Source: Halapricum desulfuricans
Lineage (GTDB): Archaea > Halobacteriota > Halobacteria > Halobacteriales > Haloarculaceae
Length of the DNA stretch: 64,000 bases
NCBI RefSeq assembly: GCF_017094465.1
Contig: NZ_CP064791.1
Coordinates: 1,302,001-1,366,000 of the forward strand
Direction: 5' to 3'
Both the position numbers and the translations under genes were made by a program. Every line of letters begins with the position of its first letter. Position 1 is the first letter of the stretch. A model generated the notes under the pieces. That model had not been told where the DNA came from and did no database searches. It saw only the letters and a list, made by a program, of their open reading frames with translations. This document shows positions 2,017-28,411 of this stretch, in pieces.

Positions 2017-3774
2017 ATGGCAAGCGGACAGATCGCGATCACCGTGCTCATGGGGATCTTCCTCGTCGCCGTCACGGCACTGCTCACGCGTATGGAAAAC
2101 TGGCGCTCGTATGCGCCGGCGTCGAGTGGGGCCAGTGGTCTCACCGGTGAGGAGACGTCCTACGGACACAGCGAGAAACCAGGTGGCATCGCCCGCTGGC
2201 TCACGACAGTCGATCACAAGGACATCGGGATCCTCTACGGCGCCTACGCGCTCGTCGCGTTCGCCGTCGGTGGGATCATGGTCATCCTGATGCGGACGGA
2301 ACTGCTGTGGGCGGGCGAAGACATCATGTCGGCGTCGATGTACAACTCCCTGTTAACCAGCCACGGCATCACGATGTTGTTCCTGTTCGGGACCCCGATC
2401 ATCGCGGCGTTCGGGAACTACTTTGTGCCGCTTCTGATCGGGGCCGACGACATGGCGTTCCCGCGAATCAACGCCATCGCCTTCTGGCTGTTGCCGCCCG
2501 GGGCGCTTCTGATCTGGGGCGGCTTTTTCATCCCGGGTATCGAGGCCGCACAGACCTCCTGGACGATGTACACGCCGCTATCGGCCGAACAGCCGATGAT
2601 CGGCGCGGACCTGATGATCCTCGGGCTGCACCTCACCGGCGTCTCGGCCACGATGGGGGCGATCAACTTCATCGCGACCATCTTCACCGAGCGCGACGAG
2701 GAGGTTACCTGGGCCAACCTCGACATCTTCTCCTGGACGATGCTCACCCAGTCCGGGCTGATACTGTTCGCGTTCCCGCTTCTGGGGAGCGCGCTCGTGA
2801 TGTTGCTGCTGGATCGCAACGTCGGGACGACCTTCTTCGCGACCGAGGGCGGTGGTGCGATCCTCTGGCAGCACCTGTTCTGGTTCTTCGGCCATCCCGA
2901 AGTGTACATCCTCGTGTTACCGCCGATGGGGCTGATAAGCTACATCATCCCGCGGTTCTCGGGCCGGAAACTGTTCGGCTTCAAGTTCGTCGTCTACTCG
3001 ACGCTGGCCATCGGTGTTCTCTCATTCGGCGTGTGGGCACACCACATGTTCTCGACGGGTATCGACCCACGTCTGCAGGTCTCGTTCATGGCGGTATCCT
3101 TAGCGATCGCGATACCATCCGCAGTCAAGACCTTCAACTGGATCACGACGATGTGGAACGGCAAGGTCAGGCTGACGACGCCGATGCTGTTCTCGATCGG
3201 CTTCGTCGCGAACTTCATCATCGGCGGCGTCACCGGGGTGTTCCTGGCGACGATCCCCGTCGACTACCTGCTGCACGACACCTACTACGTGGTCGGGCAC
3301 TTCCACTACGTGATCATGGGCGCGATCGCGTTCGCGGTCTTCGCCGGGATCTACTACTGGTTCCCGATCTACACCGGCAAGATGTACCAGAAGGCGCTGG
3401 GCAAGTGGCACTTCTGGCTGACGATGATCGGCACGAACCTGACGTTCTTCGGGATGCTCATCCTCGGCTACCTGGGGATGCCACGCCGGTATGCGACCTA
3501 TAATCTGGTCTCGGTCGGTCCGATTGACCTCTTCACGATCCTCCACCAGTCGGCAACCGTCGGGGCCTTCATCCTGCTTGCCGGCCAGCTCATCTTCGTC
3601 TGGAACGTCGTCTCCTCGTGGCTGTACGGACAGCGCCTCACCGACGGCGATCCGTGGGACCTCAAAGACGACGGGCTCTACAGCCGGGAGTTCCGCTGGC
3701 ACGATCGCCGGATGGACGACGATCTCGTGCTCGCGGACGGCGGGGAATCCGGCGACGAGTCCGACGAGCAGTAG
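2017..3774 (+). CDS. coxA: Cytochrome c oxidase subunit I (heme-copper oxidase, A-type)
   Basis: A 585-residue integral membrane protein that reduces O2 to water and pumps protons. The heme and copper ligands are visible: H116 (SHGITM) and H430 for the low-spin heme, H428 for the high-spin heme (VVGHFH), and H293 plus H342-H343 (GHPEVY, WAHHM) for CuB. E295 and Y297 in GHPEVY mark the A1 type with a D-channel glutamate and the cross-linked tyrosine. K361 fits the K-channel. One extra membrane helix precedes the standard set (residues 5-24). Small membrane-protein genes flank it. No gene with the CuA motif of subunit II lies in the window. Confidence 0.95.
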   Translation: MASGQIAITVLMGIFLVAVTALLTRMENWRSYAPASSGASGLTGEETSYGHSEKPGGIARWLTTVDHKDIGILYGAYALVAFAVGGIMVILMRTELLWAGEDIMSASMYNSLLTSHGITMLFLFGTPIIAAFGNYFVPLLIGADDMAFPRINAIAFWLLPPGALLIWGGFFIPGIEAAQTSWTMYTPLSAEQPMIGADLMILGLHLTGVSATMGAINFIATIFTERDEEVTWANLDIFSWTMLTQSGLILFAFPLLGSALVMLLLDRNVGTTFFATEGGGAILWQHLFWFFGHPEVYILVLPPMGLISYIIPRFSGRKLFGFKFVVYSTLAIGVLSFGVWAHHMFSTGIDPRLQVSFMAVSLAIAIPSAVKTFNWITTMWNGKVRLTTPMLFSIGFVANFIIGGVTGVFLATIPVDYLLHDTYYVVGHFHYVIMGAIAFAVFAGIYYWFPIYTGKMYQKALGKWHFWLTMIGTNLTFFGMLILGYLGMPRRYATYNLVSVGPIDLFTILHQSATVGAFILLAGQLIFVWNVVSSWLYGQRLTDGDPWDLKDDGLYSREFRWHDRRMDDDLVLADGGESGDESDEQ

Positions 3775-3827
3775 CGGCGCGTTCCCCATACCTAGTTTTT
3801 TCCGGTCGACAGCTGTAGATTCAGGGC

Positions 3828-4847
3828 ATGTCCGGGCAGCAGCCGAGCGATACGATGCGCGAGCGGGCCGGCGAGAGCTCGCGGCTGCTCTTGGTGTTAC
3901 TGGACGCCAACCGCTGGCTCGTCACCGCCTTCCTCTCGGTGGTCCTGTTCGCTTCGATCGTCGTCGGTGGCGTTCTCGTGCCCAACCCGGGTCTCTCGAC
4001 CGGCGATCCGATCGAGACGCTCTATCAGGCACTGATCACCTCGACGGTGACGGGCGTGACGCTCGTGTTGACGCTGAGTCAGCTGGTGCTCTCACAGGAA
4101 CTCGGTGCGGTCGGCGACCAGCGCGAGCGGATGGACGGCGCGATGTCGTTTCGCCGTGACGTGGCCCAGGCGATCAACACGGACGTGAGCCCGGCCGAAC
4201 CGTCGGCGTTTCTCCGCGTGCTCGTGACAGAGACACGGGACCGCGCTGTGGCAGTCGACGACGCGCTCGCGAACGGCGACCTCGAACCGGACGTCCGTGA
4301 TCGGGTCACCTCGTATCTCGACGCCGTGATCGAGAACGCCGACAGCGTGATCGAACAACTCGATGGTGCCACCTTCGGCGAGTTCGACGTCATTCGGGCT
4401 GCGCTGAACTACAACTACTCCTGGAAACTCTACGAGGGGCGGTCTATCACCGAGACGCAGGGTGACGACCTCTCAGACGGGGCTGTAGCGGAACTGGACT
4501 CGTTGCTCGCCACTCTGGAACTGTTCGGACCGGCACGCGAACACTTCAAGACGCTGTCTTTCCAGTGGGAGCTGTCAGACCTTTCGCAGGTGTTGCTGTA
4601 CACAGCGATCCCAGCGCTGTCGGTCGCAATCGCCTCGCTGCTGTTTCTCGACCCGTCGACAATCAGTGGCACGAGTGCTGGCCTATCCCACGCGCTCGTT
4701 CTCGTCGCCGCGACGACGACGGTATCGCTACTACCGTTCACCATTCTGCTAGCGTACATGCTCCGGATCGTGACGGTGACGAAACGGACGCTCTCGATCG
4801 GGCCGTTCATCCTCCGAGAGACCGATCGATCGGGTGGACAACCGTAG
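3828..4847 (+). CDS. Conserved haloarchaeal membrane protein with four helices, function unknown
   Basis: A 339-residue protein. Two helices near the N-terminus (about 29-52 and 66-90) are separated from two C-terminal helices (about 248-268 and 280-306) by a soluble, acidic, mostly helical middle region of about 150 residues. The middle part has no motif I can assign. The topology places the soluble domain on one face of the membrane. It lies 53 bp after coxA on the same strand, so co-transcription is possible. Bestrophin-like or sensor-like folds were considered but not supported by any residue pattern. Confidence 0.7.
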   Translation: MSGQQPSDTMRERAGESSRLLLVLLDANRWLVTAFLSVVLFASIVVGGVLVPNPGLSTGDPIETLYQALITSTVTGVTLVLTLSQLVLSQELGAVGDQRERMDGAMSFRRDVAQAINTDVSPAEPSAFLRVLVTETRDRAVAVDDALANGDLEPDVRDRVTSYLDAVIENADSVIEQLDGATFGEFDVIRAALNYNYSWKLYEGRSITETQGDDLSDGAVAELDSLLATLELFGPAREHFKTLSFQWELSDLSQVLLYTAIPALSVAIASLLFLDPSTISGTSAGLSHALVLVAATTTVSLLPFTILLAYMLRIVTVTKRTLSIGPFILRETDRSGGQP

Positions 4848-4853
4848 CCGGAT

Positions 4854-4940
4854 CTAGCCGATCACGAGCGCGAACCCGGCGGCGAACATCATGATCCCGA
4901 CTACCGCCAGCACGAGCAGGAGCAATTCTTTCTCTGACAT
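4854..4940 (-). CDS. Membrane microprotein, 28 residues
   Basis: ATG to TAG on the minus strand encodes MSEKE followed by a single hydrophobic helix of about 22 residues (LLLLVLAVVGIM, then MFAAGFALVIG). The third-position bias to G/C and the clean charged-then-hydrophobic layout argue for a real gene in an otherwise empty gap between two plus-strand genes. Upstream (beyond 4940) the string gcttttcac, read on the minus strand, is a weak promoter candidate. Position suggests a link with the oxidase locus. It is too short for most annotation programs. Confidence 0.6.
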   Translation of the reverse strand: MSEKELLLLVLAVVGIMMFAAGFALVIG

Positions 4941-4999
4941 ACCCCGACGTTATCGCCGGAAGTGAAAAGCATAATCGCTCCCGGCACCAATCGAGGGTT

Positions 5000-5257
5000 G
5001 TGCCACGACGCTGGTCCGGGCGGCGGGTGATCTACGCCGTCTACGCCGTAATCGTCTCGATCGCCGCGCTCATGGGGTTCGTCCTCGGCGCGATCAACCC
5101 CGAGGGGATGGACCCGACGTTGTTCTTCGTCGTCGACTTACCGGCGACACCGGTCGGGATGGTGATATTCGGCGTCTCGACGATCGGCGTGGGTCTGGGT
5201 GCGCTGCTGTTGCTCGTCGCGTATATCGCGGATCGATACGACGACGCCGCAGTATGA
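5000..5257 (+). CDS. Small two-helix membrane protein (DUF7520-like)
   Basis: An 85-residue protein starting with GTG. SGRRVIYAVYAVIVSIAAL begins a first helix (about 8-30), and a second helix covers about 48-75, ending in the charged YIADRYDD. Similar small proteins accompany terminal oxidase genes in haloarchaea, so it is probably the last member of the cox-linked group in this window. An upstream ATG in frame was not found, and the GTG is supported by the arginine-rich start. The DUF name is from memory. Confidence 0.65.
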   Translation: MPRRWSGRRVIYAVYAVIVSIAALMGFVLGAINPEGMDPTLFFVVDLPATPVGMVIFGVSTIGVGLGALLLLVAYIADRYDDAAV

Positions 5258-5301
5258 CATCCTCCCCGTCGGAGACAATTGTGCGTTTTCGCCGGGAGTT
5301 G

Positions 5302-15832: not shown

Positions 15833-16144
15833 TTACTGATCGAGCGTTGCAGCGATCGCCTGCTCGAAATCGGCCGCGCGTTCATAGGCTGGAGAGCGAT
15901 CGTCGATCGCGTACGTCGATTCGCCGTCGTTGTCAATGCGCTCAAGCACGCCGATATCGGCCAAGGCCGAAAGCGTGTCCGCGAGATACAGGTCTTTCAG
16001 CGGGACGCCAGCGGCATCAGCTAACTCCGAGCGCGTGTAGGTCCCATCAGTATCCAAGTGGACGATGGCGCCGAGGACAGACGCCATTTGCTCGTGTTCG
16101 GCAACGAATCGCCACCCTCCAGGGGTATCGATCGATTCAGTCAT
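15833..16144 (-). CDS. Small winged-helix protein divergent from the pilus operon
   Basis: A 103-residue protein. Residues about 18-75 read as a winged helix (ASVLGAIVHL, YTRSELADAAGVPLKDLYL, TLSALADIGVLERID with a short beta wing STYAIDD). The C-terminus is a short helix. Such proteins are common haloarchaeal transcription regulators. It is divergent from the pilB-like gene with 115 bp between the two ATGs, which makes it a candidate regulator of that operon. That role is inferred only from position. The ligand or partner is unknown. Confidence 0.7.
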   Translation of the reverse strand: MTESIDTPGGWRFVAEHEQMASVLGAIVHLDTDGTYTRSELADAAGVPLKDLYLADTLSALADIGVLERIDNDGESTYAIDDRSPAYERAADFEQAIAATLDQ

Positions 16145-16259: not shown

Positions 16260-18770
16260 ATGGCAATCGATGACACTGACGGGGGAGAGGGTGAGGCGAC
16301 TCACTCCGACGACGATCGGTTACTACAGGACGTCAGTGCCGGAGGGGAGTACGACTGGACTGATTTCAGACGGGAGTTCCACGACGGTGGACGGTTCGAC
16401 CGAAGCAAGTATCTCGGATTCGATCCACAGCATACGGGCGACCGTCTCGAAGACGGGGCAACGGCTGGCAAGACACTCGATCGACACTGGCAGTCGTTTC
16501 TCGATCTCGACACGACCCCGGTCGCCAAGGGCGAGTATTTCTGGGAACACTTCAAACGGGAGTATTACTACGAGAGCGGCGACGAGCCCCCGCGCGACGG
16601 CGACGGGAACAAGATCCCGTTCGAGCCCGAGGAGTACCTCGGATTCGATCCGGACGAGACCGAGTCGCGGCTCAGTGGCGCACAGGACGACGCCGCGACG
16701 CTCAAATCGCTCGTCGACGAGCGCACGGTCGACGTCAACGAAGAGCTCGACGAGGACAGCTTCTTCTCGACGATGGAGGGCCATACGACGGTCGTCAACC
16801 GCTATGACCTGGAGAAGGCCGTCCCGATGGAGAAAAAACAGCACTTCGACGAGGTCGAGCGCTACTGGGTGAACAAACCCTACGCGTGTGCGATCGTCTT
16901 CCATTCGCGAAAGGAGAACGAGCGGAAATACTACGTCGTCCAGCCCCACCTGAATCCGATTGAGGAGGACCTTCGTGACTTTCTCTCCAGAAAGCTTCGA
17001 ACGGCGATCAAGTACGCCGACGACGAGATCGCAGTCGACGGCTCGCAGGCCGAGCGCGCGAACGTGATCCAGCGCGAGACGGAAAAGCTACTCGAGCGCT
17101 ACGACCTCTATAGCGGCCCGACGTCTAACGGTACCGGCCAGCTCGGGAAACTGAAGAAGTTCCTCGGGATGGACCTCGATGTCGAGGCGTCCTCCGGCGA
17201 GCTCGAGGGGATCAAAACGCGGCCCGAGCCGGCTGTTCTCGCTGACGACCCCAAGACGCTCACGGAGTACCAGATCGAGAAGCTGCTGTACTATCTCAAG
17301 CGCGATTTCATCGGCTACGCGAAGATCGATCCGATCAAACACGACATCAACGTCGAGGACGTCTCCTGTGACGGGTACAACTCCCGGGTGTTCGTCTATC
17401 ACACCGAGTACGAGAACATCATCTCCAACGTCGAACACGGCGAATCGGAACTGGACGACTTCGTCGTGAAACTCGCCCAGCGCTCGGGCAAGGGCATCTC
17501 CAAGCGCCAGCCACAGGTCGACGCGACGCTGCCGGACGGCTCGCGCGCCCAGCTCACGCTCGGCAAGGAGGTCTCCGATCACGGGACCAACTACACGATC
17601 CGCCAGTTCAAGGACGTCCCCTTCACCCCGATCGACCTCATCAACTGGAACACCTTCTCGCTCGACGAGATGGCGTTTCTCTGGCTGTGTATCGAGAACA
17701 ACAAATCGATGATCTTCGCCGGGGGGACCGCCTCGGGGAAGACGACCAGCCTGAACGCCATCTCGCTGTTCATCCCGAGCAACTCCAAAATCGTCTCCAT
17801 CGAGGACACTCGCGAGGTCGAGTTGCCCCAGCGAAACTGGGTCGCGAGCGTCACTCGGCCTTCATTCGGGCAGGACGATACCGGCGACGTCGACGAGTTC
17901 GACCTGCTGGAGGCCGCACTGCGTCAGCGTCCCGACTACATCGTCATGGGCGAGGTCCGTGGTGAGGAAGGTCGGACGCTGTTCCAGGTCATGTCGACCG
18001 GCCACACGACCTACACCACGTTCCACGCCGACTCGGTGGGCGAGGTCATCAAGCGATTCACGACCGACCCGATCAACGTCTCGAAGACGCTGTTCACCGC
18101 GCTGGATCTGGTCAGCATCCAGACTCAGACCCGGGTCGACGGGTCGAAAGTTCGCCGGAACAAGACTCTGACCGAGATCAACGAGTACACGCCCGAAAAC
18201 GACGAGATCAACGTCCGGGACGTCTACCAGTGGCAGGCCGATACCGACCAGTTCATCCAGATGGGTAACTCGAACACCCTGGAGGAGATCAAGTTCGACC
18301 GCGGGTGGGGACAGGACCGGCTGGACGAGGAGCTGTTCAAGCGCAAGGTCGTGCTGGCGTATCTCATCGAGCAGAACCTCAACACCTACACGGAGGTCGC
18401 CGCGACGCTGCAGGCGTTCATCAACGACCCGAACACGATCATGACGCTGATCGCCAACGACCAGCTCGAGCGGAGCCTCGAGGACCTGCGGGAGATGGAA
18501 TCCGTGCAGATCGAGGTCGACGCCGAAAAGGAGGAACTCGTCCCCCGGCCGGATCCGGGCGAGGAGATCCTCGGGGAGGCCGAGGAGATCCTCGACAACG
18601 CGGATCCGCTGTTCCGTCAGCTCCGCTCGGAGGAAACGTCGGATATCGTCGAGGCGCTCACCGGCGTCGAACCGGACGACGATATCGAGGTCGACAGCGA
18701 GACGACGGAGGAGACTGATTTCGGCCAGTTCGTGCCCAAGGCCGGCGCGGAGGCGTCTGAGGAAGAATGA
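16260..18770 (+). CDS. Type IV pilus/secretion ATPase (VirB11-PilB family)
   Basis: An 836-residue cytoplasmic motor ATPase. Walker A is GGTASGKTT at residues 488-496, followed by VSIEDTREVELP (Asp box), the Walker B-like DYIVMGEVRGEE around residue 565 and the His box GHTTYTTFHAD at about 581-591. Residues 31-65 and 93-139 are imperfect copies of one module, each ending in YLGFDP plus an acidic tail, an N-terminal extension before the usual N-domain. An acidic C-terminal tail follows residue 740. Its stop overlaps the ATG of the platform gene by 4 bp. It would power assembly of pili made from the downstream pilin-like proteins. Prepilin peptidase is not in the window. Confidence 0.9.
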   Translation: MAIDDTDGGEGEATHSDDDRLLQDVSAGGEYDWTDFRREFHDGGRFDRSKYLGFDPQHTGDRLEDGATAGKTLDRHWQSFLDLDTTPVAKGEYFWEHFKREYYYESGDEPPRDGDGNKIPFEPEEYLGFDPDETESRLSGAQDDAATLKSLVDERTVDVNEELDEDSFFSTMEGHTTVVNRYDLEKAVPMEKKQHFDEVERYWVNKPYACAIVFHSRKENERKYYVVQPHLNPIEEDLRDFLSRKLRTAIKYADDEIAVDGSQAERANVIQRETEKLLERYDLYSGPTSNGTGQLGKLKKFLGMDLDVEASSGELEGIKTRPEPAVLADDPKTLTEYQIEKLLYYLKRDFIGYAKIDPIKHDINVEDVSCDGYNSRVFVYHTEYENIISNVEHGESELDDFVVKLAQRSGKGISKRQPQVDATLPDGSRAQLTLGKEVSDHGTNYTIRQFKDVPFTPIDLINWNTFSLDEMAFLWLCIENNKSMIFAGGTASGKTTSLNAISLFIPSNSKIVSIEDTREVELPQRNWVASVTRPSFGQDDTGDVDEFDLLEAALRQRPDYIVMGEVRGEEGRTLFQVMSTGHTTYTTFHADSVGEVIKRFTTDPINVSKTLFTALDLVSIQTQTRVDGSKVRRNKTLTEINEYTPENDEINVRDVYQWQADTDQFIQMGNSNTLEEIKFDRGWGQDRLDEELFKRKVVLAYLIEQNLNTYTEVAATLQAFINDPNTIMTLIANDQLERSLEDLREMESVQIEVDAEKEELVPRPDPGEEILGEAEEILDNADPLFRQLRSEETSDIVEALTGVEPDDDIEVDSETTEETDFGQFVPKAGAEASEEE

Positions 18771-20944
18771 GTCTCGACACGCGCACCTCGGAGGCGACAC
18801 TCGGCAGTTCCAGTACCCTCGGAGACACGTTTTATCCGCTGTACCAGTGGCTGTTCGACGAGGAGGGCGATTTCGTCGCCAACGTCGAAGACAAGCTCGC
18901 GGAGGCGCGGATGGCGGACAACGTCGAGATGTTCCTCTCGCGTGCGCTCGCGGTCGGCGTCATCTCCGGGTTCGCGCTGTGGCTCGTCGGTTCGCTGCTG
19001 GGCTATCTCATCGTCTCGATGCTATTGCCCGAGGACTGGCTCATCCTCGGTATCGACCTGGGTCAGTACAACCAGCTCGTGAACACGCTAAAATTCCCGG
19101 CGATCATTCTCGTAACGGGCCTGTTTTTCGGTGCGATCGGCTTTACTATCGGTTTCGGCTCGCTGGTGTCGATCCCGTACTTCCGGTCGAACGCCCGCAA
19201 GCGAGAGATCAACGTGCTGCTCTCCGATTCGATTTCGTTCATGTACGCGTTGTCGGTCGGGGGGCTCAACCAGCTGGAGATCCTCGAAGCGATGGCCGCG
19301 GCCGAGGACACCTACGGCGAAGTCGCCCAGGAGTTCCAGTCGATCGTTCTCGAAACCGAATACTTCGACACCGACTACCGGACGGCGATTCGCAACCAGG
19401 CGCTGCAAACACCGAGCGACGAGCTCAGTCAGTTCCTGACGGACATGCTCTCGATCATCAACTCCGGCGGGGACATGACGAGCTTCCTGGAGGATCAAAA
19501 GAACAAGCACATGCGGACTGCCAAGCAGGAACAACAGAAGCTGCTGGAGACGCTGGAGCTGTTCGGCGAGATGTACATGACGATCTCGCTGTTCCCGCTG
19601 CTTTTGATCATCATTCTGGTCATCATGAACATGATGGGCAACGGGAACCCGATGCTCATGTACGGGACCGTCTACGGACTGATCCCGTTGACGAGCATGG
19701 CGTTCCTGGTGTTGGTGTCGACAGTGACACAGGACACGGTCGGCGACGGTTACCTCGAAGCGACACGTGGTGACGGTGGCCAGCCGACGAAATCCGGCGT
19801 TCTCAATCTGGGACTGGTCAAGCAGTTCACCGGCGAATATAGCGTCTTCGACCGGGTCAAGAACCGCGAGGGCTCCTATCAGGTCGGGGAAATCGTTCGG
19901 CAACCGCATATCTTCTTCCGGGACAACCCGCTGTACGTACTCGGACTGACCGTCCCGATATCCCTGCTCGCGCTCGGTCTGTCGATCGTCGCCGGGTGGG
20001 CGGCACTGCCGTTCCCGTTTCAGACGGCCGACGGCACCGGATTCTTCTCCGCGATGGCCGAGGACCCGATCCAGCAGACGTTCTTCTGGGTCTACCTGCC
20101 GATGTACATCAACTTCATTCCGCTGGCGATCTTCTACGAGTGGAACCAGCGATACCGGAAGTCCGTGATCGGCAAGCTCTCGGAAAACCTCCGCAAACTC
20201 GCCAGCGCGAACGACACCGGCATGACGTTGCTGGAGTCGATCAACGTCGTCGCCGACACCTCGACGGGCCGGCTGGCCGACGAGCTCGATACGATTCACG
20301 CGAAGACGAACTACGGGACGAGCCTCAAGCAGAGCCTCCGGGAGTTCAACAACAAGTTCCACGTCCCGCGGATGGCCCGGACGGTGAAGCTGATCAGTGA
20401 GGCACAGGAGGCCTCCAGCCAGATCCAGGACGTTCTCTCGACGGCAGCACAGGCCAGCGAGAATCAGGACGACATCGAACGCGATCGCAAGTCCCGCACG
20501 CGGATGCAAGTCGTGATCATCATCATGACGTATCTCACGCTGCTGGGCGTGATCGCGCTCCTGAAGATGCAGTTCCTGGATACGATGCAGGGGCTGGAAT
20601 CGGCGTCGTCCGGCAGCGGCGCACAGGGTGGCCAGTTCTCGGTCGATTCGCTGGGACCGCTATCGATGCTGTTCTTCCACGCGGTGACACTCCAGGCGAT
20701 CCTCTCGTCGTTTATCGCAGGCTATATTAGGGATGTCAACCTGGTATCAGGCGTCAAGTACGCGGTGATCCTCTCGACCATCGCGCTGGTGGTCTGGATC
20801 GCCGTCGGTGGCAGCGATACGGCTGTCGGATCGAACGAGACGGCCGAGGCAGCACTCGCACTGCTGGTGGTGGGCCCGATCGGTCACGATCTGCGGCGAC
20901 TTCGAACACGGGTAACTCAGCTATGGGACGGGGACGATTCCTGA
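18767..20944 (+). CDS. Type IV pilus membrane platform protein (TadC/GspF family)
   Basis: A 725-residue integral membrane protein with two GspF-type modules. The first has helices about 62-90 and 105-135, then a soluble helical region with LSDSISFMYALSVGGLNQLEIL, and two helices near 260-320. The second begins near 380, repeats the layout with KLASANDTGMTLLESI and ends with helices near 575-600 and 635-690. This duplicated form is typical of archaeal PilC/FlaJ-like platforms, on which the ATPase acts. It overlaps the ATPase gene (ATGA) and the next pilin-like gene by 22 bp, showing tight coupling. Confidence 0.9.
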   Translation: MSLDTRTSEATLGSSSTLGDTFYPLYQWLFDEEGDFVANVEDKLAEARMADNVEMFLSRALAVGVISGFALWLVGSLLGYLIVSMLLPEDWLILGIDLGQYNQLVNTLKFPAIILVTGLFFGAIGFTIGFGSLVSIPYFRSNARKREINVLLSDSISFMYALSVGGLNQLEILEAMAAAEDTYGEVAQEFQSIVLETEYFDTDYRTAIRNQALQTPSDELSQFLTDMLSIINSGGDMTSFLEDQKNKHMRTAKQEQQKLLETLELFGEMYMTISLFPLLLIIILVIMNMMGNGNPMLMYGTVYGLIPLTSMAFLVLVSTVTQDTVGDGYLEATRGDGGQPTKSGVLNLGLVKQFTGEYSVFDRVKNREGSYQVGEIVRQPHIFFRDNPLYVLGLTVPISLLALGLSIVAGWAALPFPFQTADGTGFFSAMAEDPIQQTFFWVYLPMYINFIPLAIFYEWNQRYRKSVIGKLSENLRKLASANDTGMTLLESINVVADTSTGRLADELDTIHAKTNYGTSLKQSLREFNNKFHVPRMARTVKLISEAQEASSQIQDVLSTAAQASENQDDIERDRKSRTRMQVVIIIMTYLTLLGVIALLKMQFLDTMQGLESASSGSGAQGGQFSVDSLGPLSMLFFHAVTLQAILSSFIAGYIRDVNLVSGVKYAVILSTIALVVWIAVGGSDTAVGSNETAEAALALLVVGPIGHDLRRLRTRVTQLWDGDDS

Positions 20945-21456
20945 CGGACGAGCGGGGACAGACACTCCAAGACTATGTCGTCGGCGTGGTCGTCGTCCTC
21001 CTCGCGACGTTTTTCGTCATCGCGTATCTGCCGAACGTGTTCGCGTCTTACGACAGCCCGACCGACGGGATCCGTTCGAGCCAGGCCGATAGGGTGGCCG
21101 AATATATCCTCACGAACTACAGCGTCGAGGACCAGTCACACGAACTCAGGTACGATGGCCCGGGGGGCCTTCACGACACACTTTCGACCGAAGCCGGAAT
21201 GAACGCGCTTCGCGATCAGACGTCGTTGAATACGAGTACGGATCGACGGCTCCCACCCGATATCCAGGTGTTTCTGGTCAATGCGTCCACGCTGTCCGAC
21301 CGGGACGAACTGGTTCCGGCAGTCCATCGGGGAAACACGCTATCGTACGGTGATACGTACCGTGGTCAGGCTGCTGCACGTTCGATCAGGGTGGTTACAA
21401 TGGACAACGAGACAATCTGTGATCCGAGCTGCTGGCTCGTCGTGAGGGTGTGGTGA
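20923..21456 (+). CDS. Type IV pilin-like protein (DUF7287-like)
   Basis: A 177-residue protein with a class III signal peptide. R11-G12 before Q13-T14 matches the archaeal prepilin peptidase rule [KR][GA][ALIFQMVED][ILMVTAS], and a hydrophobic helix follows (about 17-40). The C-terminal part is a soluble domain with a cysteine pair (CDPSC) just before the end WLVVRVW. The start lies 22 bp inside the platform gene. It is probably a minor pilin or pseudopilin of the same machine. The family number is from memory of haloarchaeal annotations. Confidence 0.8.
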   Translation: MGRGRFLTDERGQTLQDYVVGVVVVLLATFFVIAYLPNVFASYDSPTDGIRSSQADRVAEYILTNYSVEDQSHELRYDGPGGLHDTLSTEAGMNALRDQTSLNTSTDRRLPPDIQVFLVNASTLSDRDELVPAVHRGNTLSYGDTYRGQAAARSIRVVTMDNETICDPSCWLVVRVW

Positions 21457-21460
21457 GACG

Positions 21461-22087
21461 ATGACTGACAGACGTGGACAGGCGTATACGCTGGAAGGCA
21501 TGTTCAGTGCGATCGTCGTGCTGACTGCCCTCCTCTACGGGTTACAGGCAGTGGACGTCGGCCCCTGGACGAGCGAAGCCGCGAGCGAAACGAGTTCGCT
21601 CGAGACCCGGGCACAGGACGCGCTGGATATCGCCGCTTCGGAGGGAAGTCTCAGCAACGTCACGCGGTGTTACGGCGTCAACCCCGAATCGACTGGCGGG
21701 TACGTTTTCTCCGGACAGATAGCGGGGCCGGATGCGACCACGTTCGAGCGCCTGTTGAACACAACCTTCGACGAGCGAAACCGCAACTACAACGTGTATC
21801 TCTACTACTGGGACGAGGAGACCGGGCAGAAAGAGCGAGAACTGGTCTCGATGAATCGAACGGCGGCCGATTCCGGCGTCGTCGCTCCGACTGATTCTTC
21901 GGTCGTTGCGAGCCGAACTGTCGTCCTCTACGACGATATGCCGACGCGGTTCGGCAGCGATCCGAAGTGTGGACGGACGGGGGCGACGTTGGAAGACTAC
22001 TCGGAGAGACATGGCTGGTACGTCGAAGACATCGCTCCGAACTCCCCGGTTTACAACGTCGTCGAAGTGCGGGTGGTTGTATGGTGA
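21461..22087 (+). CDS. Type IV pilin-like protein (DUF7288-like)
   Basis: A 208-residue protein. R5-G6 before Q7-A8 is a prepilin peptidase site, with a hydrophobic helix LEGMFSAIVVLTALLYGLQ directly after it. The soluble part contains CYGVN and a later cysteine in DPKCGR, which may form a disulfide, and ends with NVVEVRVVVW, a C-terminus shared in style with the preceding protein (VRVW). It starts 4 bp after the previous stop and overlaps the next gene by 7 bp. The role as a minor pilin is inferred from signal and operon position. Confidence 0.8.
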   Translation: MTDRRGQAYTLEGMFSAIVVLTALLYGLQAVDVGPWTSEAASETSSLETRAQDALDIAASEGSLSNVTRCYGVNPESTGGYVFSGQIAGPDATTFERLLNTTFDERNRNYNVYLYYWDEETGQKERELVSMNRTAADSGVVAPTDSSVVASRTVVLYDDMPTRFGSDPKCGRTGATLEDYSERHGWYVEDIAPNSPVYNVVEVRVVVW

Positions 22088-23094
22088 CTGGGCCGAGCGA
22101 CGAGCGAGGGCAGTTGCTGTTGGTCGGTGCAGTCGCGATCGCGCTCGTGGTCGTCGGCGGCGTCGTCTTGCTCAACGGTATGAAGTACACTGATACGGTC
22201 GGCACGTCGGGTACCGACGACGCGATTTCCGATTCGGAACGGACCGTCGAGATGGCCGAATCCGACCTTGACGGGCTGGTCGACCGTGTGGGTAGCGATA
22301 CGTCGCTTCTCACCTTCGAGGAGCATCTCCAGCGGAACGTCTCCCAACTGAGCCGCGTTTACACGCGGCTGGCCGCTGACCGGCGATCAGCGTACCTCAA
22401 CATCTCCGTGAACACGACCGCGTCCGGAAGCGGCTGGTTGTTGAATCAGTCTACTGAGGGACAGTTCGAAGGCGAGGACGGTGCCCAGAACTGGACTGTC
22501 GTTTCCGATGCTACCGTTACCGAGCCGTTTCGGATCATCGTAGACGAGTGGCCGGACGCGACGGGGAACGGTTCCGACGCCAAAGAAAGCCCGTTGTATA
22601 TCAATGTGACCGACGACAATGGTCACTGGTGGTCGCTCAAACTGAACGATTCTGGAGGGGGATCTGCTGAGGGGAAACAGGTGTCCGTTTACACGGATCG
22701 AGGACTCCAGGAGGCCTACCGAGAAGACGACGTGTCGTGGATCGGCGACGACGGTCCATACGAGATCGACGTGACAGCGGGCCGGATCGACACAGCAGCG
22801 ACAGCGGAACCGGTGACCGGGCTGTGGACGTTCGCTGCAAACGTCTCAACACCGTACGATATCTCCTTCCGGGACGGGTTCCCGGGAAGTGGCGAAGGCG
22901 GTGGTGAAAAAAGTGCGACGGGCCGGTACCGGATCGCAACGGACGGTGTGGCAGCCGCTGAGATACCCGACAGCGTCAACGCGACCGAAATTCCAGTCTT
23001 CCATCCGGCGTTCGATATCTACTACCACCAGCCGGAAATCCAGTATACCCGGACGATATCCGTCACGTACCATCCGGGAGGGGATGTGGAATGA
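22081..23094 (+). CDS. Type IV pilin-like protein with large glycosylatable ectodomain (DUF7261-like)
   Basis: A 337-residue protein, the largest of the five in the operon. R9-G10 before Q11-L12 is the prepilin peptidase site, followed by LLLVGAVAIALVVVGGVVLL. The ectodomain has many N-x-S/T sequons (for example NISVNTT, NWT, NVT, NDS, NVS, NAT), so N-glycosylation outside the cell is likely. The ATG at 22081 overlaps the previous gene by 7 bp; an upstream in-frame start exists but would remove the N-terminal position of the signal. The stop overlaps the next ATG (ATGA). Confidence 0.8.
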   Translation: MVTGPSDERGQLLLVGAVAIALVVVGGVVLLNGMKYTDTVGTSGTDDAISDSERTVEMAESDLDGLVDRVGSDTSLLTFEEHLQRNVSQLSRVYTRLAADRRSAYLNISVNTTASGSGWLLNQSTEGQFEGEDGAQNWTVVSDATVTEPFRIIVDEWPDATGNGSDAKESPLYINVTDDNGHWWSLKLNDSGGGSAEGKQVSVYTDRGLQEAYREDDVSWIGDDGPYEIDVTAGRIDTAATAEPVTGLWTFAANVSTPYDISFRDGFPGSGEGGGEKSATGRYRIATDGVAAAEIPDSVNATEIPVFHPAFDIYYHQPEIQYTRTISVTYHPGGDVE

Positions 23095-23573
23095 CTGATC
23101 GGCGATTTCACGGGGACACGCGAGCGGCATCGATCGCGATCACACACGCGCTCACCCTCGGTATCACGGCGTTGTTGATCACGACCCTGCTTTTCAGCAC
23201 TGGATCGATGCTCGACCAGCAAAAAGAGCGTGTCATCCGTGCCGGCCTGCTCGATGTCGGCGATAGCGTCGTCACTGAACTCCACGAGATCGATCGAACC
23301 GTCGCGAACGGAAACGTTTCGAGTGACGTGAACACGACAGTCACGTATCCCGACCGCGTCGGAGGGGTCGTCTATACGGTCCGGCTGTCAGTCGCGTCGG
23401 ACGGGACAGTCACTCTGTATGCCAACTCTTCGAACCCGAACTACGATATGTCGGTTCCGACCAAACTCGGCAATACCACTGCAGTCTGTGAAGGGTACAA
23501 AAGCAGCGGTGAGATACGGATCTACTATGACGCCGGTCGGGAATGTCTGACTATCGGGGGTGTGGATCGATGA
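23091..23573 (+). CDS. Type IV pilin-like protein (DUF7266-like)
   Basis: A 160-residue protein. R11-A12 before A13-S14 fits the prepilin peptidase rule with alanine instead of glycine at the -1 position. The helix AITHALTLGITALLITTLLF follows. The soluble part is beta-rich with two cysteines (AVCEGYK and RECLTIGG) that could pair, and sequons NVS, NTT and NSS. Both ends overlap neighbours by 4 bp in ATGA form, so the five pilin-like genes are translated as one block. Proposed to be a minor pilin. Confidence 0.8.
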   Translation: MTDRRFHGDTRAASIAITHALTLGITALLITTLLFSTGSMLDQQKERVIRAGLLDVGDSVVTELHEIDRTVANGNVSSDVNTTVTYPDRVGGVVYTVRLSVASDGTVTLYANSSNPNYDMSVPTKLGNTTAVCEGYKSSGEIRIYYDAGRECLTIGGVDR

Positions 23574-24307
23574 CTGACGAACGTGGCGTCTCCGATCTCG
23601 TGGCCTTCGTCCTGACGTTCGGGATCATCATTCTGTCCGTCAGCACGGTGTACATGCTCGGATTCGACAGTCTCGAAGAAGTCCGTGACGACGAGCAGAT
23701 CCGGAGCGTCGATCGGACGATGGAAGGTGTGTCCGAAACACTCGCAGACATCCATCGAGAAGACGCGCCGAGCCGATCGGTCGCGGTCGGTCTCGACGGC
23801 GGCACGATTTCGGTCGTCGAGGAGTCACAGGTGAGAGTCATCATCGAGACGCCGAACGAGACGATGACGCGATCCATCGACGTCGGGGCACTCGTTCTCA
23901 CCCCGAACGACAACGCCGAGATGGTGTATGAAGGTGGAATCGCATACCGAACCCAGGGCGACGGGCAGTTCGTCCTGTCGGATCCGGCGATATCGTGTGA
24001 TGGTCGGACCGCAGTCGTCGACATATCGAAGGTGACGGGTCAGCTCAGTATCTCCGCGCCCGGCACGGTCGAGTTGTCGGGGCGGCATACCTCGGAGCGT
24101 GCGCTGTACCCGGTTGCTGGCCAATGGCGGAATAACGCGACCGCCGTCGAAATCGAAATCGACGACACCCGCAATCCCGATGCCTGGCGGCAGTACTTCG
24201 AGACGAGTCCCGACGGCTGGACAGAAACGGGCGATGGGTACCGGTGTAGCGGCCTCGATGGGGTATCCGTGCGGACGACGACGATCACGCTCGACGTGGT
24301 CTACTGA
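23570..24307 (+). CDS. Type IV pilin-like protein (DUF7289-like)
   Basis: A 245-residue protein, last gene of the operon. R5-G6 before V7-S8 is the prepilin peptidase site, followed by DLVAFVLTFGIIILSVSTVYML. The soluble domain carries two cysteines (AISCDGRT and GYRCSGLD) and ends TTTITLDVVY. The N-terminal RGVSDLV closely resembles RGVSEVL in the large convergent pilin-like protein, which suggests the two belong to one family. The ATG at 23570 overlaps the previous stop (ATGA); an upstream start in frame at 23543 is less suitable for the signal. Confidence 0.8.
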   Translation: MTDERGVSDLVAFVLTFGIIILSVSTVYMLGFDSLEEVRDDEQIRSVDRTMEGVSETLADIHREDAPSRSVAVGLDGGTISVVEESQVRVIIETPNETMTRSIDVGALVLTPNDNAEMVYEGGIAYRTQGDGQFVLSDPAISCDGRTAVVDISKVTGQLSISAPGTVELSGRHTSERALYPVAGQWRNNATAVEIEIDDTRNPDAWRQYFETSPDGWTETGDGYRCSGLDGVSVRTTTITLDVVY

Positions 24308-24499: not shown

Positions 24500-27400
24500 T
24501 CATTCGAAGGTGATGACGTTCATATCGATGGAGATGTATTCCGGGTTCTGGGCATCGGGGTAAGCCTCGGCAGCGGGCACGATCTGGATCGTCCCGGTGA
24601 ACCTGTCGTCTTCGGTCTCGATCTCGTAATCGTAGTAGCCGGTCGCGTTCGACCACGATCCTAGGCCGAACCGTTCGAACGTCGCGCTGGTACCGTCCAG
24701 CGAGACGTCGGTAGTTGCCGTCCTCGTCTCGCCGGTCGAGCGATTCGTTAGCGTGAAATCGACCTGTTGCGTGCCCGCGACGGTAGCCGTGTTCTCGATG
24801 AGGCCATCGAGGTCGGACAGACTAGTGACGAGGATCAGTTCGTCTTCGTCGTAGCTCTCCGTTCCGACTCGGACTCGGTTGACGACGAACGTTTCGGTTT
24901 CGACGGTGATCGTCCCGCGTTGACTGCTGTTGTCCGCGTCGTATCCGGTGTTGTCCGCGGTGGCTTCGACGCTGATCGGTCCCGTCTCATCGGTCGGAAC
25001 GCCATCGAAGGTGACAGTCGTGGATTCGCCGGCCGGGAGCGTGATCGCTTCGCTGCTCCGGGACTCACCATCGACGAACCAGCGAACCGGCATCGTCGCG
25101 TCTTCGTCACCGACGTTCGCAACTGTCGCCGTCACGGACGCGTCCGAATCTAGCGGGACGCCCCGCGGGTACGCTCGCTCGAAGCCCTGTACGATGAATC
25201 GAGGTCCGCGATCGGAACCGACGTAGACGTTTCCGGAGCGGGTCTGGTTCGGATTCGCAGTCAATCCGAGTTCGTACTCGTAGGTGCCCGGATCGTAGCC
25301 TGCGTTCGGCGGGATATCGAACTCGATCCAGGTGCTCTCGTTGTGCTCGAGTTCGCCTGTCGCAGTGCTACCGGCTGCAGCCCCATCGAAGTGATACGTA
25401 ACATCGGTCGATCCGACCTGACCGCCCCTGTTGGTCACCTCAACACGAAGCGTGTCGGTTTCACCTTCTTCGACGACGGCCGGTGTCTGCAGATCGCTGA
25501 TCACCAGACGGGCCGGTGTCTTTACTGTTCGAGTCCGATTGACGACTTCGAACAACACGACTGCGTCGTTGTAGTCGGGGTCGCCGCTAGTCGATGGATC
25601 CGCGTCGTCCGGATCAGCGTCCGGCTGGGTGAGTTCGAACAGCATCACCAACTGATCGTCTTCGAGGTTGAGCCGCCCCGTATCGGGATCGAACTTGTCT
25701 TCGAGAATGTCACCGATGCTACGCTGATCCGGACTCGCACTACCCCACGATGGCACTGTTTCGTTGTCACCGAGGATGACGACATTTTCAGTGTTCTGGT
25801 TGCTGTTGGTCGAAACCAGCTCACTGCCCCAATCAGTACACCGGTTTCGATCGAACCAGCCGTATGGATCGACGTACCTGTCGAGTCCGGTGTCCGTGTA
25901 TCCGTACCTCTCACACCCGTAGGTGGTTGCGGAAACCCACAGCGACGATGCCTCCGAGACAGTCACGGTCCGGTTGAAATACGGATTGCGATCGACCTGC
26001 CTCTCCCAGTTCCTGGGACGGTTCAGATCGTCCCCGCTCCACACGTTGTGTTCGACGCGTCCGGCAGTCTCGTTTTCCGTGACGATGTCCATCACTGTGG
26101 GAGCACGACTGATCTCGCCGCCGTCGATCCGGTAGTTCCCGTCGTTCGGGTCGTATATCCACCCGCCGTCGCTGTCCCACCACCAGTCCCCGTTCGACCA
26201 GCCGACGTAGTCATAATCGTACGATGTCGCAGTCGGCTCCGTTCCGAGCACCTGCAGCCGGGCAGTCGTATCACCGTCGATCTCTATCTGCCCATCATCA
26301 CCCGATTCGAACGCACCTGAGAGATTCGCGGCCACACGGATCTGGTCGGTCGCCGAGGAGTTGGCCGTCGACACCGTGTACTCGTAAGCCCCGGCCGGAA
26401 GCGCCTCCGGGACCTCGTAGTCAAACGTGACGGTCGTTCCGGAACCGGGAGCAAGCGATACGGTATCAGTCTTGCTCGTCCCGTCCGCGAAGGCGAATTC
26501 GATCGTCTGTTCGGCGCTGCTCGCCCCTGTGTTGTTGATTACCGCCGTTACCGTCGTCGTGTTACCCTGTTCGACTGGGTTCGGAGTGGCTCGCACGCTC
26601 GAGACCTGGAAGAAATCGGTCGCTTTCTCCCCTACGTAGAACGTCCGCGTGACGTTCTCGTCCCCCGTCTGGACGGTGTAATTGTACAGGCCTGGCGTGG
26701 CGACCCCATCGACCGTCAGCGTGAGTTCGCGGCTCTCTTCTCCGGTCTCGGAGAGATGCCCGTCGAGCGTGGGTTCCCATTCACCCCGGTCGACGACTGT
26801 GCCTGTCGAAGCGTTTTGCACCCGGATTTCGACCGACTGCGTACCGTCAACGCCACCTGTGTTTGTAATCGACGCGTTGATTTCGAACGTCTCCTCCGCG
26901 TCGATACCGGTTGGCGATCCCGCCTCGGAGATATCGAAATACGCTGCGCTCCCGATGTCGATCAGCGTCGTCGCGAAGTCGTCGTTCGAGGTGACGTTCA
27001 ACGGTATGTCAGTTCCACTCGACCCCGTTGGAATATCGAACGTCAACGTCGCCTCCTCCTCGCGACCGAGGCCGACCGTGCGAGTGGCTTCCCGGTCGCC
27101 GTCGAAACTGAACGCGATCGTCTGGTTGCCGAGCAAGTCTCCCTCGTTTCGAACTGTCACGTTGAGCTGTGGGTTGCCGGATAGGTGCGCACTATCGGGC
27201 GCATCGAGTGACGTGATCTCGAAACGCGGCCAATCATCGTCTGTATCCCCAATATCGATCGTATCGGAGTACACGTCATCTCCCGTCTCGATGCGGTATT
27301 GATACCTGCCAGGGTCGCTCACGGCGTCACCGGGGATCGTAAACTCGTAGTCGACTGCCTCTCCCCCGGCGAGCCTCTCGGTTTCGACGTGCTGGGGCGC

Positions 27401-28411
27401 CGCTCCGGAGACCGGATCCCATCCTCCGCTTGCCGTCTCCTTATATATCGAAAACGAGATATCGTTCGTTTTCGTCAGATCGCCCGTGTTCTCGACTGTC
27501 GTGTTCACGGATACGTCTTCGTCTGCCGGTGCACTCGGAACGGCGTCCACGCCCGTCACCTCGAAGTTCGCGAACTCGGTATCCTGGACCGTATACGTGA
27601 TTTCGACGGTATCGCCCGATCCGACCTGGGTGTCTTCACCGGGACTGACATCGACCAGCCGGTCGTCGTAGTTACGAAGCGCGTAGTTGTGCCAGGCCGT
27701 CGCGAATCGGCTGTTCTCGACCACGACAGTGATGTTTTCCACACCCTGTGGGCGACAGCTCTCGAGTTGCCCGACCGGTGTCGATGGTCCCTCGCTCAAT
27801 GCAACTGCTGTCTTGTTGACGAACAGCGAGCGAGTGAGATTGGCCGTCATGCGACGACTCTCGCTCTCGTTGAGACGGGCATCGATCGTACTCGATCCGT
27901 GCATCCCCGTCTGCATCTGAGACAGAGAGACGGCCAATCGTCCGTCTCGGTATTCGATGTTCGGTGCCCGGACCATCGAACTGCTGTTCGGTCCTGTCTG
28001 CTCCCACACACCACCGAATTCGTACCCGACAGCGTCACCGTCCGCCGATTCGTAGACGAGCGACTGCAATTCGATCTCGCCGGTCGTACAGGAAGCGTTT
28101 CCGTTCGCATACAACGTAATTCGGGTCCGAGATTCAGTCGTTACGTCGTTCGCTATCTCGTCCGGCAGTTCGAACGCGACGGACTCCGATTCGGACTGTC
28201 GTATCGCTTCGATTTCGGACGCGAACTGCTGGAACGACTGGGTCGCGGACTGGACCCGGTTTTGCTCTTCGACTTGCTCGACAGTGTTCCCGCCCATCAC
28301 CAGCAATAGCACCGCCGCTGTGACGACGAATCCGATCAACAGCGCAGTGCCGAGTACTTCAGAGACACCCCGGTTGTCGCCCCCGACAGACCCCTCTTGT
28401 ATCCGGCGCAT
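24500..28411 (-). CDS. Giant type IV pilin-like surface protein with CARDB-like repeats
   Basis: A 1303-residue protein. R14-G15 before V16-S17 is a prepilin peptidase site and is followed by the helix EVLGTALLIGFVVTAAVLLL. Residues about 40-290 form a DUF7289-like pilin head. Then come about four CARDB-like beta-sandwich repeats (VENTGD, VRNEGD, ITNTGG, INNTGA mark the strands). A Trp/Tyr-rich insert with two cysteines follows (about 730-950, GWSNGDWWWDSDGGW). About three more CARDB-like repeats complete the protein. Many N-x-S/T sequons are present. I expect a pilus-tip or cell-wall adhesin. It converges on the pilus operon and has its own promoter. The ATG at 28411 gives the proper signal. 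Confidence 0.85.
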   Translation of the reverse strand: MRRIQEGSVGGDNRGVSEVLGTALLIGFVVTAAVLLLVMGGNTVEQVEEQNRVQSATQSFQQFASEIEAIRQSESESVAFELPDEIANDVTTESRTRITLYANGNASCTTGEIELQSLVYESADGDAVGYEFGGVWEQTGPNSSSMVRAPNIEYRDGRLAVSLSQMQTGMHGSSTIDARLNESESRRMTANLTRSLFVNKTAVALSEGPSTPVGQLESCRPQGVENITVVVENSRFATAWHNYALRNYDDRLVDVSPGEDTQVGSGDTVEITYTVQDTEFANFEVTGVDAVPSAPADEDVSVNTTVENTGDLTKTNDISFSIYKETASGGWDPVSGAAPQHVETERLAGGEAVDYEFTIPGDAVSDPGRYQYRIETGDDVYSDTIDIGDTDDDWPRFEITSLDAPDSAHLSGNPQLNVTVRNEGDLLGNQTIAFSFDGDREATRTVGLGREEEATLTFDIPTGSSGTDIPLNVTSNDDFATTLIDIGSAAYFDISEAGSPTGIDAEETFEINASITNTGGVDGTQSVEIRVQNASTGTVVDRGEWEPTLDGHLSETGEESRELTLTVDGVATPGLYNYTVQTGDENVTRTFYVGEKATDFFQVSSVRATPNPVEQGNTTTVTAVINNTGASSAEQTIEFAFADGTSKTDTVSLAPGSGTTVTFDYEVPEALPAGAYEYTVSTANSSATDQIRVAANLSGAFESGDDGQIEIDGDTTARLQVLGTEPTATSYDYDYVGWSNGDWWWDSDGGWIYDPNDGNYRIDGGEISRAPTVMDIVTENETAGRVEHNVWSGDDLNRPRNWERQVDRNPYFNRTVTVSEASSLWVSATTYGCERYGYTDTGLDRYVDPYGWFDRNRCTDWGSELVSTNSNQNTENVVILGDNETVPSWGSASPDQRSIGDILEDKFDPDTGRLNLEDDQLVMLFELTQPDADPDDADPSTSGDPDYNDAVVLFEVVNRTRTVKTPARLVISDLQTPAVVEEGETDTLRVEVTNRGGQVGSTDVTYHFDGAAAGSTATGELEHNESTWIEFDIPPNAGYDPGTYEYELGLTANPNQTRSGNVYVGSDRGPRFIVQGFERAYPRGVPLDSDASVTATVANVGDEDATMPVRWFVDGESRSSEAITLPAGESTTVTFDGVPTDETGPISVEATADNTGYDADNSSQRGTITVETETFVVNRVRVGTESYDEDELILVTSLSDLDGLIENTATVAGTQQVDFTLTNRSTGETRTATTDVSLDGTSATFERFGLGSWSNATGYYDYEIETEDDRFTGTIQIVPAAEAYPDAQNPEYISIDMNVITFE

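Follow-up and report, generated by a model that had tools for sequence, protein, structure and literature searches.

A giant haloarchaeal pilin-like protein with a LecB-like domain on a CARDB stalk, probably the adhesive subunit of a facing pilin operon

In the window studied here, that is, the whole stretch of 64,000 nucleotides taken from a haloarchaeal genome of 2.88 Mb, a minus-strand gene facing a pilin operon encodes a protein of 1303 residues, P0001. We propose, with a probability of roughly 60%, that P0001 is an archaeal modular minor pilin, most likely capping the pilus, that holds a LecB-like calcium-dependent lectin domain. Established for this protein are the gene and its signal motif, the family of the head, the order of the domains, the conservation, the link to the operon, the replacement of the body by other adhesion domains, and the predicted fold. 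Its parts are:

24500..28411, minus strand: P0001, putative giant modular pilin, 1303 aa, ATG at 28411
28295..28411, minus strand: class III (prepilin) signal and onset of the hydrophobic N-terminal helix, aa 1-39 (TIGR02537)
27587..28372, minus strand: DUF7289 pilin head, aa 14-275 (PF23960, 3.3e-18; model; alignment)
26321..27586, minus strand: stalk of four CARDB/Ig-like beta sandwiches, aa 276-697, boundaries approximate (PF07705; model strands)
25526..26320, minus strand: LecB-like domain (the insert), aa 698-962, with C833/C858 (alignments; model; VIA)
26114..26218, minus strand: Trp/Tyr-rich loop DYDYVGWSNGDWWWDSDGGWIYDPNDGNYRIDGGE, aa 732-766, 35 residues, missing or different in orthologues
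25562..25582, minus strand: DPDYNDA motif, aa 944-950, end-anchored on the LecB calcium ligands D99, D101, N103 and D104
24503..25525, minus strand: three further CARDB-like sandwiches, aa 963-1303 (PF07705; match to 3idu)

The reading frame and the prepilin signal, both proposed in a preliminary description made from the sequence alone, were borne out. The N-terminus, MRRIQEGSVGGDNRG/VSEVLGTALLIGFVVTAAVLLLVMGG, matched NCBIfam TIGR02537 (archaellin/type IV pilin N-terminal domain) with 28.9 bits against a cut-off of 20. Cleavage is predicted after R14-G15 from the archaeal prepilin motif, and a similar prepilin-like start is kept in the orthologues of a 14-row alignment. A second hydrophobic segment or other membrane anchor was searched for in P0001 and none was found, which rules out a lipoprotein or a Sec-secreted adhesin with a C-terminal anchor. 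The Pfam and NCBIfam scans of P0001 were also free of the bacterial N-methylation domain, the N-terminus being of archaeal type, and the Pfam scan gave no match to the C-terminal beta-propeller of PilY1.

Behind the signal, the head scored 66.5 bits against DUF7289 (PF23960; curated cut-off 27), and the same family was found in P0008, the last gene of the operon (5e-40). The resemblance already noticed between the two heads (RGVSEVL/RGVSDLV) is thus true homology, since DUF7289 matches both. Cysteines C108 and C219 of the head are invariant in the alignment of 14 sequences. The AlphaFold model of P0001 shows a 55-residue N-terminal helix (residues 18-72) followed by a beta domain; residues ahead of about position 50 are modelled with low confidence, and for the full-length model both the global (pTM 0.34) and the inter-domain confidence are low. 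When it was used for a fold search, Ig-like repeats swamped the matches and the head was not informed. The expectation of about seven beta sandwiches with CARDB repeats agrees with our reading of the strand list of the model, which counts four ahead of the insert and three behind, the seventh reaching past the modelled part. CARDB (PF07705) scored 93 bits in P0001, and the sandwich at aa 1065-1173 aligned with the solved CARDB domain 3idu with a Z of 13.3.

Another domain is inserted between these two sets of sandwiches. It had been described as a Trp/Tyr-rich domain with two cysteines that might vary between strains. The two cysteines stand (C833/C858); strong aromatic richness is confined to the species-peculiar loop at aa 732-766, which lies between early strands and is mostly of low model confidence, and the remaining insert is common to all orthologues. 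A hypervariable insert is therefore rejected: the aromatic loop alone varies, whereas the core of the domain ranks with the best-conserved parts. Invariant residues of the insert in the alignment of 14 are P799, C858, Q896, E926/L927 and D946-x-N948-D949; C833 is nearly so.

As the preliminary description had suggested, the structure was predicted and the insert compared by fold search. The insert, modelled from residues 694-972 together with 15 homologues (AlphaFold), reached a pLDDT of 79.6 and a pTM of 0.81. Foldseek matches were weak (best E 0.012), with LecB-type lectins appearing from E 0.018 within a range of 0.01-0.03. Upon re-alignment with VIA, the first 14 rows were all LecB-type calcium lectins at Z 8.7-10.0, the best being BclA (2vnv, Z 10.0, 117 residues, 2.6 A), with PA-IIL (1gzt) at 9.0 and RS-IIL (1uqx) at 8.7; these were followed by thrombocorticin (7.1) and then, from 5.5, by unrelated folds of the TNF/C1q type. 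The last residues aligned by VIA are 266 of the model and 114 of PA-IIL. Anchoring the last strand at this end places D944, D946, N948 and D949 (model D251, D253, N255 and D256) on LecB D99, D101, N103 and D104, a mapping that assumes an ungapped last strand and is not an exact superposition. These four LecB residues coordinate calcium (PMC8752737), and their P0001 equivalents are invariant in 16/16 sequences, including those from Halorussus and Haloarchaeobius. The invariant E926 is a candidate counterpart of LecB E95. A C-terminal carboxylate like that of LecB G114 is absent because the insert is an internal domain.

At the sequence level, the insert did not match the PA-IIL model PF07472, and against DUF4114 (PF13448) it stayed below the cut-off, a single sequence out of 16 giving E 0.098. 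Since both models fail to match, we call the insert LecB-like and not a LecB member. No known Pfam family was found for it, neither its profile nor its motif retrieved anything from the PDB sequences, and the LecB motif text had no match in the open-access literature. A search for DUF4114 relatives in haloarchaeal genomes was silent everywhere, controls included.

P0001 converges on a plus-strand operon, with a stop-to-stop gap of 192 bp. The operon and its neighbour comprise:

15833..16144, minus strand: small gene, possibly a regulator (function inferred from sequence), divergent from pilB and conserved beside the operon
16260..18770, plus strand: PilB-type assembly ATPase, 836 aa (PF00437, PilB3_C)
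18767..20944, plus strand: PilC/TadC-type membrane platform, 725 aa (PF00482)
20923..21456, plus strand: pilin-like, DUF7287 (PF23958, 4e-35)
21461..22087, plus strand: pilin-like, DUF7288 (PF23959, 7e-48)
22084..23094, plus strand: pilin-like, DUF7261 (PF23922, 9e-9)
23091..23573, plus strand: pilin-like, DUF7266, short form (PF23928, 5e-16)
23570..24307, plus strand: P0008, small DUF7289 pilin, last gene of the operon (PF23960, 5e-40)

This machinery may be related to PilB1-C1 of Haloferax volcanii, the deletion of which reduced adhesion (PMC6491452).

We surveyed 100 stretches around DUF7288, which served to mark the operon, from 17 genera of one family, calling genes with profiles built for this work. 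A convergent, larger DUF7289 protein lay directly behind the small DUF7289 pilin in 99 of the 115 operons (a count that includes a few doubles from overlapping stretches), with a gap mostly below 100 bp. Most of the other operons had a large DUF7289 protein nearby in another position. Because of this convergence across 17 genera, the large DUF7289 protein can be regarded as a standard partner of the operon. Among the named examples added to the survey, Haloferax and Halorussus showed the same layout, and two archaeoglobal metagenome-assembled genomes have the small DUF7289 gene and the large one in succession on one strand. The question raised earlier, whether a giant convergent pilin always accompanies the operon, receives a divided answer: a large DUF7289 partner usually does, whereas the 1303-aa form is not universal, as the lengths fall into three classes or more (465-658, 734-794 and about 1270-1380 aa). 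Of the 146 genomes of the same family that were searched, about 34 have full-length or near full-length homologues, mostly of 1240-1330 aa, with hosts that include Halorientalis, Haloarcula and Halomicrobium. All 21 Haloarcula genomes checked carry DUF7288 operons and nearly all of them bear the giant; in many, the giant adjoins a different pilin operon, and a second DUF7288 operon lies about 150 kb off or on another contig. Carriage by viruses was not borne out: none of 27 pattern matches in IMG/VR encoded a relative.

The bodies behind the DUF7289 head are exchangeable, being DUF7308, DUF7305, a von Willebrand A (vWA) domain, or the CARDB stalk with the insert. In the class of 470-660 aa, hhalign found no match to the insert and DUF7308 or DUF7305 follows the head instead, so these bodies are different. 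The proteins of 734-794 aa carry a vWA domain with a DxSGSM MIDAS motif and then a domain related to the insert (profile comparison, E 3.7e-7, probability 92.9%) that does not have the DYND motif. A Halorussus protein of 500 aa consists of head and insert with CARDB absent, and likewise those of Haloarchaeobius (507-529 aa); since the insert can thus stand directly behind the head, it is an independent module, to which CARDB is added as a stalk. Furthermore, a relative of 1449 aa joins CARDB and vWA. Long DUF7266 pilins occur in 12/14 operons of the vWA group, and beside the giants DUF7266 is almost always of about 150-160 aa. The 12 long DUF7266 pilins scanned all contained PKD, six contained Laminin_G_3 (ConA-like lectin) and one contained ricin-type lectin repeats. 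From these sequence comparisons, the replacement of the body by vWA, beside DUF7266 pilins that carry PKD and in several cases also ConA-like or ricin-type lectin domains, suggests a modular adhesive pilin.

A course of events consistent with these parts is that a prepilin peptidase would cut the N-terminal signal of P0001, the long hydrophobic helix would sit in the membrane, and PilB and PilC would then pull the protein into a pilus with the five small operon pilins. P0001 would most likely cap this pilus, because about 1000 extra residues on the head would be hard to bury in a filament. The four CARDB sandwiches would extend the LecB-like domain, with three more sandwiches behind it, and this domain, presumably with calcium bound, would probably bind a sugar carried by a surface, by an adjacent cell or by the biofilm matrix.

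The tip location is suggested by analogy with bacteria. In Streptococcus sanguinis, PilB (vWA) and PilC (ConA-like lectin) have bulky modules that were modelled at the tip (PMC8179133, PMC9934059). They share with P0001 a small pilin head, large C-terminal adhesion modules and a predicted display at the tip, and their module types recur in the sister proteins of P0001. They differ from it in having the bacterial N-methylation domain and in lacking a CARDB stalk and a LecB-like domain. Of the two marks of bacterial modular pilins in the IPR012902-based census, P0001 shows the extra functional module C-terminal to the pilin head but not the N-methylation domain; the most extreme multi-domain example in the bacterial survey has 860 residues (PMC8179133). 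PilY1.1 of Myxococcus xanthus is likewise a pilus-associated adhesin, with an N-terminal calcium-binding domain (DUF4114) that its authors compared with the BclA, RS-IIL and PA-IIL lectins (PMC9109919). However, it is not a pilin but a PilY1 protein with a C-terminal beta-propeller, and the P0001 domain fails the DUF4114 model. LecB/PA-IIL (PF07472) resembles the insert in predicted fold and in the DxDYND motif at the position of the calcium site, but it is a free protein of 114 aa that uses its partner's C-terminal carboxylate as a ligand, whereas the insert is internal, spans about 265 aa and has no significant sequence match. Among archaea, the family arCOG02911, a duplicated signature minor pilin of clade 2 and 4C euryarchaeal systems with about 250-550 aa (Makarova et al. 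2016, PMC4858521), is probably the same as DUF7289, judging from size, position and duplication. As far as the account given there of this family extends, it describes neither CARDB, vWA or lectin bodies, nor forms of 750-1300 aa, nor the convergent order. Nor did the open-access literature, outside which most subscription papers fall, yield an account of pilin forms with vWA, lectin or CARDB or of the convergent layout, or a paper naming DUF7289, DUF7266 or DUF7288 or treating archaeal modular pilins.

Parts of this proposal can be read otherwise. P0001 could be a modular pilin in which the LecB-like fold is structural or binds a protein and takes no sugar, a reading that we consider somewhat unlikely. 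It accounts for the failure of the LecB and DUF4114 sequence families to match the insert and for the related vWA-class domain that does without the DYND motif, and it avoids the intersubunit C-terminal ligand of LecB, which is impossible in an internal domain. The weakness of the Foldseek matches by themselves and the want of a demonstrated counterpart in the insert for the LecB ligands Glu95 and C-terminal Gly114 also count against a lectin. However, the invariance of D944, D946, N948 and D949 in all aligned homologues is as expected for a working metal site, and the sister proteins and partner pilins bear domains recognised as lectin or vWA.

The position of P0001 allows two further readings. 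Since the full-length model is flexible, the protein could be built in along the shaft, or stay at the pilus base, with its stalk pointing sideways; the low inter-domain confidence permits a flexible linker, and for modular pilins with such a linker PMC8179133 allows for a place in the body of the pilus. This is unlikely, as the bacterial counterparts were modelled at the tip only and the locus offers five small pilins, which fits a minor-pilin complex. It is more improbable still that P0001 is a membrane-anchored adhesin with a pilin-like N-terminus that never enters a pilus. The distance between the giant and the second operon in many Haloarcula genomes is in favour of such an adhesin and against assigning the giant to the operon pilus, but the adjacency in 99/115 operons and the family shared by the head and a small operon pilin argue for a pilus subunit. 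A capping modular pilin with a LecB-like lectin domain is consequently the reading that we retain.

The locus also differs within the genus. Four congeners hold at the same locus a vWA pilin and a long DUF7266 pilin with PKD, with ConA-like lectin domains in at least two of them; the locus is taken as identical because the window and all four share its conserved upstream neighbours, a thioredoxin-like gene and the small gene that may be regulatory. PilB and PilC of the window share 80-92% identity with those of the congeners and about 70% with Halorientalis-type operons. In contrast, the five pilins are closer to the Halorientalis type (34-51% identity) than to the congeners (mostly 27-39%). 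The head tree groups the window giant with Halorientalis-type giants and places the sampled congeners in the vWA group. Therefore, the pilin set and the large pilin were exchanged together while the motor was conserved, either through gain by transfer or through differential loss. We tentatively extend this to haloarchaea, in which the PilB/PilC motor might be fixed and the pilin cassette swapped as a block with its large adhesive pilin at one chromosomal locus, as an archaeal counterpart, built on an unrelated pilin family, of the bacterial tip-adhesin strategy.

From the structure of the locus, a single gene can be picked for each operon as the likely adhesive subunit, along with a domain worth testing. 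The pilin families concerned still carry DUF names, and there are homologues in the manipulable genera Haloferax and Haloarcula. The locus further suggests that the same modular-pilin solution, vWA and lectin types included, was reached in bacteria and in archaea through different pilin heads. Under a block swap, the bodies would comprise the LecB-like lectin with its CARDB stalk, vWA accompanied by a partner that bears a lectin, and others. The small gene at 15833..16144 is kept beside the operon with 64-67% identity in three congeners, 55% in the fourth and 39-44% in three genomes of genus g10.

In the vWA class of large DUF7289 proteins, the domain akin to the LecB-like insert of the giant pilin lacks the DYND motif, as seen in the following product.

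L046 (comparison stretch) 2971-5280, + strand: vWA-class protein; insert-related domain at about aa 595-730

It looks as if metal-dependent binding had shifted from the insert-related domain to the vWA domain. A vWA-type large pilin also adjoins a lectin-bearing pilin in another stretch (L080, below), and a 575-aa vWA-type DUF7289 protein occurs in one of three tandem DUF7288 pilin cassettes on a congener contig (G004:C238, L044).

L080 6796-8544, - strand: DUF7266 pilin with PKD and ricin-type beta-trefoil lectin repeats

Next to the pilin operon of the window stands a small gene that is conserved at this position both in congeners and in Halorientalis-type genomes, and which may regulate the operon.

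Window 15833-16144, - strand: 103-aa gene, divergent from pilB

The genome of the window holds a second five-pilin operon (L037, G000:C1:1548000-1567000), without adjoining PilB/PilC; after it comes a 528-aa DUF7289-DUF7308 protein encoded convergently.

Large DUF7289 genes also stand in rows. Natronobiforma cellulositropha (L156) has five consecutive ones (499-765 aa), with no operon seen within that stretch, and a run of three includes the gene below.

L082 2534-5140, + strand: 869-aa DUF7289 protein that includes bactofilin-like and DUF7305 regions
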